Assembly: GCA_022843405.1 (NCBI GenBank)
Contig: JALHNQ010000014.1
Location: 1 to 64,000 of the forward strand
Reading direction: 5' to 3'
Origin: Methylocystis sp.
Lineage (GTDB): Bacteria; Pseudomonadota; Alphaproteobacteria; Rhizobiales; Beijerinckiaceae
DNA: 64,000 nt
Part shown: positions 42,819 through 53,490 of the stretch, one piece after another
How positions within the stretch are numbered: position 1 is the stretch's first letter
Layout: each line of letters begins with the position of its first letter
Program-made: the position numbers and the translations under genes
The notes under the pieces: model-generated
Told to the model about the DNA's origin: nothing
Database searches by the model: none
What the model saw: the letters and a program-made list of their open reading frames with translations, nothing else

Positions 42819-45800
42819 ATGAACGACGACAGCCCAAAGGGGCCGGATTATTCGAAGAGCCTCTATCTGCCGGTCACGGATTTTCCCATGCGCGCCGGCC
42901 TGCCGCAGCGCGAGCCGGAATTCCTCAAGCGCTGGGAGACGATCGGCCTGGAGAAGAAAATGCGCGAGGCCGCCGCCGGCCGGCCGAAATTCACGCTGCA
43001 TGACGGGCCGCCCTACGCCAACGGCAATATTCATATCGGCCATGCGCTCAACAAGACCCTCAAAGACCTCGTGACGCGCAGCCAGCGGATGATGGGCAAG
43101 GATTGCGTCTATGTGCCGGGCTGGGACTGCCACGGCCTGCCGATCGAATGGAAGATCGAGGAAGAGAATTATCGGGCCAAAGGCAAGCAAAAGCCGGATT
43201 TCGCCCATCCCGAAGCGATGATCGCCTTCCGGCGCGAATGCCGCGCCTATGCCGAACATTGGCTTGACGTTCAGCGCGAGGAGTTCAAGCGTTTGGGCGT
43301 TGCCGGCGCATGGGACCATCCCTATTCGACCATGGCCTATCCCGCGGAAGCGACGATCGCCCGCGAAATCATGAAATTCGCGGCCAATGGCCTGCTCTAT
43401 CGCGGCTCGAAGCCGGTGATGTGGAGCGTCGTCGAGAAGACCGCGCTCGCGGAAGCCGAAGTCGAATATGAGGATTATACCAGCGACCAGGTATGGGTGG
43501 CGTTTCCGATTCCGCGCGGCGCAGAGGGCGAGCTAAGCGACGCGCGAGTCGTCATCTGGACGACGACGCCCTGGACGCTTCCCGGCAATCGCGCGATCTC
43601 CTTCTCGTCGAAGATCGACTACGGACTCTATCGCGTCACCCATGCGCCGGAGAGGAACTGGGCGCTGCCCGGCGCAACCTTCGTCATCGCCGACAAGCTC
43701 GCGAGCGACGCGTTCAAGTCGGCGAAGGTCGATGGTTATGAGCGGCTTCACGACGTGCCCGCCGCAATGCTTAGCGAATTGATCTGCGCGCATCCGCTTG
43801 CGCATCTTGGCTACGACTTCGACGTGCCGCTCTTCGACGGCGAGCATGTCACCGACGACACGGGCACCGGCTTTGTGCATACGGCCCCGGGACACGGCCG
43901 CGAGGACTTCGACATCTGGATGGCGCATGCGCGCGTGTTGCAGGCGCGCAGCATCGATTCGCGCATTCCCTATACGGTCGACGAGGACGGCTTCTATACG
44001 AAGGACGCGCCGGGCTTCGAAAGCAAGCGCGTCATCACCGACAAGGGCGAGAAGGGCGACGCCAATGAGGCGGTCATCGCCGCGCTCGTTCAGGCCGGCA
44101 ATCTGATCGCGCGCGGAAAATTGAAGCATCAATATCCGCATTCATGGCGCTCGAAGAAGCCGGTAATTTTCCGCAACACGCCGCAATGGTTCATCGCGAT
44201 GGATAAGCCTTTCGGCGCGCCCTACCTCCCCCTCGCGGGGAGGTCGGCCGCCGAAGGCGGCCGGGTGGGGGGGCAAGCTGCCTCACCCCACCCCGCATCG
44301 CTTCGCGATGCGACCCTCCCCATCAAGGGGAGGGATAGCGCATCCTTCGAGACGCGTGCTTCACACGCTCCTCAGGATGAGGTTCGTGGAAATCAATCGA
44401 CTCTCCGCGACATTGCGCTTGAAGAGATCGCGCGCACGACATGGACGCCCGCTGCGGGAGAGAACCGCATCCGCGGGATGATTCAAAATCGTCCCGACTG
44501 GGTGGTGTCGCGCCAGCGCGCCTGGGGCGTGCCGATCGCGGTATTCGTCAAGAAGGGCACGCATGAGCCGCTTGTCGACGCGCGCGTCAACGCCCGCATT
44601 ATCGAGGCGTTCGAGAAGGAGGGCGCAGACGCCTGGTATGAAGCGAACGCCGCCGAGCGCTTTCTGTCGCCCGATTACAATGCGGAGGATTACGAGAAAA
44701 TCGCCGACGTTCTCGACGTATGGTTCGATTCAGGCTCGACCCACGCCTTCACGCTCGAAGACCCCGTTCATTTCCCGATGCTCGCCGGCATCCGCCGCAA
44801 GCGCGACGGCGGCGAAGACGAGATCATGTATCTCGAAGGCTCCGATCAGCATCGCGGCTGGTTCCATTCCTCGCTGCTCGAAAGCTGCGGCACGCGTGGC
44901 CGCGCGCCCTACGACGCCGTGCTGACCCATGGCTTCGTGCTCGACGAGCGGGGACGCAAAATGTCGAAGTCGCTCGGCAATGTCGTCGCGCCGCAAAAAA
45001 TCATCGCCGATTCCGGCGCCGACATCATGCGGCTGTGGGTCGCGGCGTCGGATTACGCCGACGATCTGCGCGTCGGGCCGGAAATCCTGAAAACCTTCGT
45101 CGAGCTTTATCGCAAGTTGCGCAACACGCTGCGCTGGATGATCGGCGCGCTCGCGCATTATCAGCCAAATGACGATTCGGCGATGCGCGAAGCCGGAGAG
45201 CTCGAACGCCTCATGCTGCATCGTCTGCATCAGCTCGACGAGTCGATCCGCACGTGCTATGCGGCATACGACTATAAGCGCGTCGTCGCGCTGCTTACGC
45301 ATTTCATGACGAGCGAGCTTTCAGCCTTCTATTTCGACGTCCGCAAGGACGCGCTCTATTGCGATCCGCCGTCGAGCGTCAAACGCAAGGCGGCGCTTGC
45401 GACCATTGACCGGATCTTCCGCAGCGTCACGGCGTGGCTCGCGCCGATTCTCGTCTTCACCGCGGAGGAGGCGTGGCTCGCGCGCTATCCGGACGCGCTC
45501 TCCGTGCATCTGGAGCATTTTCCCGCCATTCCCGACGCCTGGCGCGATGATGCGCTCGCGGCGAAATGGGAGAAGATTCGTAAAATCCGCACGGTCGTCA
45601 CCGGCGCGCTTGAAATCGAGCGCGCGCAAAAGCGCATCGGCTCTTCGTTGGAGGCGGCGCCGATCGTTTACGTCGCCGACGACTCGTTGCGCGCAGCTTT
45701 GGAGGGCGTCGATTTCGCCGAAATCTGCATCGCGTCCGACATTCATATTGCGTCGGGAGAAGGCCCGTCGGACGCCTTTCGCCTGCCGGAAGCGCCAGGC

Positions 45801-45965
45801 GTCGCGGTGGTTCCGCAACGCGCGCCGGGCGTCAAATGCGCGCGCTCGTGGAAATATTTCGATCCTGCGACGGCGGATTCGGATTATCCCGACGTGACGC
45901 CGCGCGACGCGCTGGCGTTGCGTGAACTTGTCGCGCTGGGGCGCTGGAGCGGGGCAGGTTCTTAA
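42819..45965 (+). CDS. ileS: Isoleucyl-tRNA synthetase with an in-frame repeat insertion
   Basis: IleRS charges tRNA-Ile. The protein is 1048 residues, about 60 longer than alphaproteobacterial relatives. Landmarks are [11 protein letters not shown] (class I HIGH) near residue 70, the CP1 editing domain with [17 protein letters not shown], the return to the core at TPQWFIAMD near 460, [18 protein letters not shown]-type sequence near 550, and KMSKSLGN near 716. Residues 467-526, encoded by 44217-44396, are foreign: they translate two palindromic repeat elements and interrupt the loop between [13 protein letters not shown] and [11 protein letters not shown]. The insert is exactly in frame and has no stop. 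The C-terminal zinc site is degenerate (only KCARSWKYF remains), as in other Alphaproteobacteria. Confidence 0.96.
44224..44334. repeat. GC-rich multi-palindromic repeat inside ileS
   Basis: Four stems follow each other: CCTCCCC/GGGGAGG (44225-44243), CGGCCGCC-GAA-GGCGGCCG (44245-44263), GCATCGC-TTC-GCGATGC (44295-44311) and CCCTCCCC-ATCAA-GGGGAGGG (44314-44334). All arms pair perfectly. The layout, with CCTCCCC at one end and GGGGAGGG at the other, is typical of a dispersed intergenic repeat, yet here it is translated as part of IleRS. Confidence 0.85.
44341..44382. repeat. Dispersed palindromic repeat (family B) inside ileS
   Basis: This 42-base element begins CATCCTTCGAGAC and ends TCCTCAGGATGAGG, with an inner stem GCGTG (44354-44358) and CACGC (44364-44368). 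It is the same family as the two elements at 53311-53354 and 53379-53423, with a different inner stem. It is translated within the ileS insertion. Confidence 0.85.
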
Positions 45966-53310: not shown

Positions 53311-53354
53311 CCTCATCCTGAGGAGCGAGCGCAGCTCGCGTCTCGAAGGACGAG
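53311..53354. repeat. Dispersed palindromic repeat (family B), copy between rpsP and rimM
   Basis: The element runs from CCTCATCCTGAGGAG to GTCTCGAAGGACGAGG, with an inner stem GCGAGC-GCA-GCTCGC. It is the reverse complement of the ileS element in its outer parts. It forms an inverted pair with the element at 53379-53423. Confidence 0.85.
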
Positions 53355-53378
53355 GAAATCGCCGCGCGTGCTGTCCGC

Positions 53379-53423
53379 CCTCGTGCTTCGAGACGGCTCC
53401 TGCGGAGCCTCCTCAGCATGAGG
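53379..53423. repeat. Dispersed palindromic repeat (family B), inverted partner
   Basis: The element runs from CCTCGTGCTTCGAGAC to CCTCCTCAGCATGAGG, with an inner stem GGCTCC-TGC-GGAGCC. Its outer parts match the ileS copy in the same orientation. The inner stem differs in sequence from the other two copies but is fully paired. Confidence 0.85.
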
Positions 53424-53490
53424 GCGAATGAAGCATCTGGCATGGAGTTGCGCCAACCTCCCCTCGAAGGCGCGGCAAATTCGCGCCCCT

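Follow-up and report, generated by a model that had tools for sequence, protein, structure and literature searches.

A loop of isoleucyl-tRNA synthetase that looks like a recurrent landing place for dispersed palindromic repeats in Methylocystis

Palindromic repeats read as part of a protein are established in Rickettsia and Wolbachia, where RPE-1 to RPE-7 and the Wolbachia palindromic elements are dispersed palindromes of ~100-150 bp lying in frame in conserved genes (PMC3767692, PMC2229807), and Rickettsia IleRS is itself listed with RPE-7 (PMC3767692). The residues encoded by Rickettsia eRPE-4 lie in solvent-exposed areas, and a given locus may carry different RPE groups in different orthologues (PMC3767692, PMC2229807). 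A common origin is favoured for RPE-4, -6 and -7, and the same survey leaves the choice between hotspot and common origin undecided for Rickettsia (PMC3767692). According to a review, an RPE-bearing guanylate kinase is active, with a changed substrate affinity (PMC2229807). REP dimers are reported inside ORFs, including those of tRNA synthetases, in X. oryzae, E. litoralis and S. alaskensis, and two Xanthomonas carry different REPs at about the same site of recB (Di Nocera 2013, PMC3733652). Br-REP2 of Bradyrhizobium is described from intergenic regions and 3'-UTRs (PMC5082802), the Methylocystis SC2 genome paper mentions palindromes at oriC and CRISPRs (PMC3794950), and mitochondrial genes of Nematomorpha have long inverted repeats inside protein-coding sequence (PMC6649704).

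We analysed a window of 64,000 nt from a Methylocystis-like draft genome (G000; 98 contigs, 3.34 Mb), in which ileS carries an insert with the features of a protein-coding palindromic element: it is dispersed and multicopy, lies in frame and stop-free in a conserved gene, and may be lacking in relatives. The likeness to RPEs extends to the holding of different element types at one locus. Unlike RPEs, the elements described here occur in free-living Hyphomicrobiales, visibly different families occupy one loop, types change among close congeners, and the use of three reading phases speaks against one ancestral insertion. The two families found in the window (I and II) are longer two-stem units than the GTAG/CGTC REPs and have no evident tag of that kind (PMC3733652). 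Inserts of Rhodoplanes (L082, L103) resemble by eye the printed Br-REP2 consensus, but sit inside ileS (PMC5082802); in Nematomorpha both arms encode conserved protein regions, whereas the ileS palindrome is an extra insert derived from a dispersed repeat (PMC6649704). In the open-access literature, the terms used brought up no study of this loop of IleRS in Hyphomicrobiales. Within the literature searched, the phenomenon is of a known kind, and what seems new is a multi-family, multi-phase and rapidly exchanged site in free-living bacteria.

The presumably essential gene ileS occupies positions 42819..45965 of the + strand (all coordinates are window positions). Its product of 1048 aa matches Pfam tRNA-synt_1 (E 1.8e-123) and Anticodon_1, and its best sequence matches in the PDB are IleRS such as 8c9e and 1ffy. 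Codons 467-526 (44217..44396, + strand, 180 bp, in frame and stop-free) have no counterpart in solved 8c9e, whose residues 415 and 418 align to residues 461 and 529 of the query. Without these 60 repeat-derived residues the protein has 988 aa, to be compared with stop-to-stop segments of 968-1028 aa in short-loop relatives with complete frames. The first-pass annotation had proposed an in-frame insert of 180 bases in a synthetase of otherwise normal length, comparable to Rickettsia palindromic elements within genes; position, frame and parallel are borne out. The open frame suggests that the insert is retained and translated in IleRS, and its RNA folds at -110.3 kcal/mol (z -7.24 relative to 200 dinucleotide-shuffled sequences). 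In an AlphaFold2 model from 59 rows (mean pLDDT 77.9; a first run with 26 sequences was poor, at 68.6), pLDDT is below 50 across residues 468-524, between helices 455-461 and 529-539, and 8c9e has hardly any residues at this position. The loop, which we take to follow the CP1 editing domain, is predicted to be disordered and may be solvent-exposed.

Two adjacent dispersed palindromic elements lie in the insert, as first proposed with slightly different limits (44224-44334 and 44341-44382). The first (44225..44334) consists of two two-stem units joined head to head in a complete dimer, running from CCTCCCC at 44225 to GGGGAGGG at 44334; we call this family I, and intergenic copies L124, L131 and L127 share the architecture. 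By eye, unit 1 (44225..44273) comprises an outer stem CCTCCCC/GGGGAGG, an inner stem with a CGAAG loop and a GGGTGGGGG tail, and unit 2 (44284..44334) is inverted, with TCACCCCACCCC, an inner stem with a CTTCG loop, and CCCTCCCC/GGGGAGGG. The second element (44343..44382) is a single unit of family II, equal to half a dimer; in full, a unit of this family has the sequence CCTCATCCTGAGGAG...GTCTCGAAGGACGAGG. The element is up to 98% identical over 40 nt to other copies in G000 and 90% complementary to positions 53311-53350, within a family II dimer at 53311..53424 that a simple gene call places between genes. Full dimers of both families are present elsewhere in G000, and partial matches to the family I element occur across it. 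As judged by eye, family II starts with CCTC, a CGTC variant allowed in PMC3733652, and family I is without a clear terminal tag.

The dispersed nature of the elements is confirmed by 57 matches of the stretch 44217-44396 in G000, itself included, among the 40 of 88 first-look candidates that were scored, some of these matches being halves or opposite strands of one place. From 40 G000 stretches around matches, plus the window, BLAST with loop queries delimited 59 element intervals, among which some are halves of one dimer, L155 repeats window positions 53311-53424, and L122 overlaps L150. By a simple gene call on codon scores, 47 of the 59 are intergenic, 7 lie within ORFs and 5 span an ORF end. 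Against Rfam, nothing scored above the gathering threshold, the top score being LOOT with 20.2 bits versus 46.4. The GANTC motif of the Caulobacter/Brucella CIR is absent from the window loop (L009) and present in the loops of 9 of the 26 listed alleles. The RAYT transposase (Y1_Tnp, PF01797) was not found in G000 (0/1, with 5/14 control genomes positive), and mobilisation by RAYT was dropped as a candidate there. We also rejected the notion that the elements are pre-adapted as coding sequence: 64 of 168 frames in 28 copies are open (0.38), compared with 0.36 in shuffled sequence and 0.48 in random genomic pieces.

The first-pass reading of the insert stands, but is incomplete where it implies a one-off event, since the loop is a recurrent site whose types are exchanged across the genus. 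Among 37 congeneric genomes including G000 (same genus by genome search; G006 is M. rosea SV97, whose loop, L012 = L040, is of type A), the ileS loop was obtained from 36, with none from G027, and 26 of the 36 hold repeat-derived sequence or fragments of six types: A in 9, C in 5, D in 2, E in 1, F in 2 and II in 7, all of these except II being subfamilies of family I. Typing was manual and used the DNA, or peptide plus junction DNA in the case of L030, L035 and L163. The window and its nearest relative G036 combine A with half of II (both are counted among the nine of type A); the arrangement in G036 is the same, though diverged (L010), and other congeners have different repeats or none. The relatives thus do not all share the same residues, and the residues do match repeats elsewhere: further copies in the own genome were found for 11 of 12 representative loops among the matches listed, with none listed for Nitrobacter L087.

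The other 10 of the 36 loops (21-37 residues) carry none of the six types, and 'none' is meant in this sense only. The loops of L033 and L036, so labelled, and that of Methylosinus L063 contain a further palindrome of ~50 nt (GACCGCGC...GCGGTCC), with fold z of -7.0, -2.3 and -7.7 respectively, which is perhaps one more family. In L024, two short palindromes lie in a stretch that breaks up the family II unit of ileS, with the frame kept. The loop of Methylosinus L048 is counted as II, though its units are in reverse order.

All 36 congeneric loops are stop-free in frame. The ileS frame is open from the N-terminal to the C-terminal motif in 33 of the 36, including L027, L028, L030, L033, L034 and L163, which were first flagged with one internal stop; the remaining three are L024 and L031, cut by contig ends, and L164, which has a short loop and breaks further on. 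Although the extraction procedure seeks in-frame loops, one was obtained from each of the 110 loci L009-L118, and among 108 further loci L188 alone was left without a resolved loop. Excision of the insert or its bypass by the ribosome was rejected: neither would need the frame, yet the frame is kept in every congeneric loop. Repeats can mis-assemble in a draft of 98 contigs, but an assembly or binning artefact is hardly credible here, given that the separate assembly G036 has the same family I + II arrangement (L010), that genomes in 1 to 3 contigs (G022, G006, G019) carry inserts, and that no congeneric loop contains a stop.

Carriage is rare class-wide and common in Methylocystis. An ileS match was found in 89 of 106 genomes of a class sample, G000 included, and in the best 78 of the 88 matching genomes besides it, the loop is short in 76 (61 measured, at 20-32 residues; 15 by eye). 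The two long loops hold a CGTC-like REP dimer (G079, 77 own-genome matches) and another dispersed palindrome (G077, 42 own-genome matches), both counts covering both strands and the site itself. With one genome sampled from each of 24 other families of the order, 23 loops were resolved, of which 22 are short and one (L187) is long and repeat-like. Palindromes appear again in the loop of the best database relatives (e.g. L057, L058, L073, L082, L103 and L113), those of Rhodoplanes (L082, L103) being Br-REP2-like by eye. The visibly different families number at least three or four if the two that start with CGTC (Rhodoplanes and G079) are kin.

Concerning turnover, we mapped types on an ileS tree built without the loop (40 rows: the 36 congeners plus L048, L049, L063 and L051). 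At least 20 type changes are required, compared with a mean of 24.3 for shuffled labels, which were as low in 4 of 200 shuffles; 20 is a count on one tree, because ileS recombines and 8 of the tree's 37 inner branches are weak. Sister rows L018 (II) and L021 (D), 0.038 apart over 2400 nt, carry different families. Counted from its own CGAAG-like loop, the reading phase of family I is 2 in A, C, L057 and L087, 1 in D, L073 and L081, and 0 in E, L051, L076 and L113. A single insertion that then accumulated substitutions would hardly yield three phases, although compensated indels might in theory do so. One old insertion of a single element that subsequently diverged or underwent conversion by copies elsewhere in the genome would fit the phase 2 common to A and C within Methylocystis and the junctions common to different clades; we regard it as improbable, since family I stands in three phases at this loop, by eye no relationship is apparent between family I, family II and the G077 palindrome, and rows without any type fall between carriers on the tree. 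The three phases, the visibly different families and the differences between close congeners favour repeated use of one site.

Part of this diversity is reshuffling, as indicated by junctions that cross clades: FSQSNPHP is common to L014, L016, L018, L024 and L035. Just upstream of the element, a 33-nt (11-codon) tandem duplication encoding SIASGFIAMDK is found in 11 of the 36 loops (L013, L014, L015, L017, L018, L020-L022, L024, L031 and L032), duplicated once more in L024 and diverged in L014; these loops continue into A, C, D or II, so the element changes and the neighbouring sequence stays. The window joins an A-like left part to the right junction of II alleles, and may have arisen by recombination between alleles of families I and II. 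Its downstream flank is nearest to L016 (II, 0.080), then to L019 (C, 0.087) and L024 (II, 0.090), which lends such an origin modest backing. Together with the cross-clade junctions, the window junction suggests that allelic recombination is probably part of the process. Similar exchange is seen outside coding sequence, at the intergenic site L127 / L301-L304, L308, whose neighbours we take to be glyA and nrdR: there G000, G032 and G001 have one type, and G019 and G006 another. Intergenic sites swap both the type and the presence of elements.

The insert also allows coding and non-coding copies of one element to be compared cleanly. Among eight type A ileS alleles, paired columns differ at 80/2296 positions (3.5%) and unpaired columns at 141/896 (15.7%), while 4-fold sites differ at 42/711 (5.9%) inside the element and at 1292/6594 (19.6%) in the flanks; L025 is excluded from these counts, and with it paired columns reach 5.7% and 4-fold sites 22.4%. 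Stem columns were taken from an RNAalifold structure, whose details differ from the two-unit drawing. Orthologous intergenic copies (10 copies from 3 sites, grouped in 4 sets; L153, as a further site, yielded no comparable pair) differ at 28/814 paired (3.4%) and 40/232 unpaired positions (17.2%). Indels are absent among nine type A ileS elements and are of 1-2 nt in 2 of 4 intergenic sets. That stems diverge equally in coding and non-coding copies points to a process at the nucleic-acid level. On the simplest reading, a stem-keeping process, for which hairpin selection, arm-templated repair and biased conversion are candidates, would act on the element and not on IleRS.

At the protein level, pN/pS is 0.54 (A), 0.34 (C) and 0.55 (II) in the loop, and 0.20, 0.09 and 0.18 in the upstream flank, where L031, its flank cut by the contig, contributes nothing to type C. 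Protein constraint on the loop appears relaxed, with the element's own constraint making these ratios hard to read. A hairpin with a function in ileS, such as a mid-gene mRNA structure that slows ribosomes for domain folding or protects the mRNA, could account for the strong fold (z -7.24) and for stems far more conserved than flanking 4-fold sites, if their low divergence reflected selection inside the gene, and four pairs show double changes that keep pairing, all in the single sequence L025. We consider it unlikely nonetheless: intergenic copies are equal in stem conservation, types turn over rapidly, 10 of 36 congeneric loops lack the six types, and the loop is short in 76 of 78 cases from the class sample and in 22 of the 23 resolved for the order.

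These data lead us to propose, with good confidence, that a permissive IleRS loop, predicted to be disordered, takes up and exchanges dispersed selfish palindromes, with the insert as a tolerated passenger whose stems are maintained at the level of the element. The alphaproteobacterial loop before TLR.IALEEI would be a permissive linker, on which palindromic elements, mostly intergenic, would land from time to time; we infer insertion as such, as a RAYT-type transposase was not found in G000. Only in-frame, stop-free outcomes would survive, because ileS is presumably essential, and the element, to judge from its open frame, would then be translated as a floppy loop. Fast turnover would follow from fresh insertion or loss and from homologous recombination between ileS alleles of related species, with conversion by other genomic copies also possible; the window allele may have received family I from one allele and half of family II from another. 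The stems would be held constant by the same process as in intergenic copies, not by any need of the enzyme. The loop thus looks like a safe landing place for palindromic repeats. More tentatively, and with somewhat less than even confidence, this might hold for the class as a whole, palindromes settling, recombining and replacing one another in the loop, so that hairpin maintenance at the level of the element, through repair of one arm from the other or through selection at the nucleic-acid level, and not protein selection, would set the sequence of the enzyme here. If so, such loops would be natural recorders of the traffic of REP-like elements; in practice, repeat-filled loops make a conserved protein vary spuriously in length.

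IleRS seems to be one of at least two acceptor loops, with CobN as the second. Across the genus, the CobN linker (30 loci, L267-L296, of which L283 and L296 were not usable) holds different repeat-like peptides or none, and a second acceptor linker favours permissiveness over targeting. Site-specific targeting, by which elements would recognise the loop DNA as insertion target, would explain why several families recur in one loop, a recurrence that permissiveness also explains; it is very improbable in view of left and right junctions that differ between types, of 47 intergenic calls among the 59 G000 intervals, and of the use of CobN and CobB linkers. Among the internal G000 copies, the clear cases flanked on both sides by Pfam domains are those of IleRS and of CobB, where the element lies between CbiA and GATase_3; the CobN element sits inside its single CobN-Mg_chel family. 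CobB (L120:1870-3321) and CobN (L144:376-3846) are encoded less than 10 kb apart on contig C1 of the own genome, and their linkers hold family I-like in-frame elements with a common tail peptide, PKSAVADFGHSKSANREHPVCGG. A small ORF of G000 (L135:2399-2977), which we take to be TatB-like and which has no Pfam hit, contains family II units in its C-terminal part.
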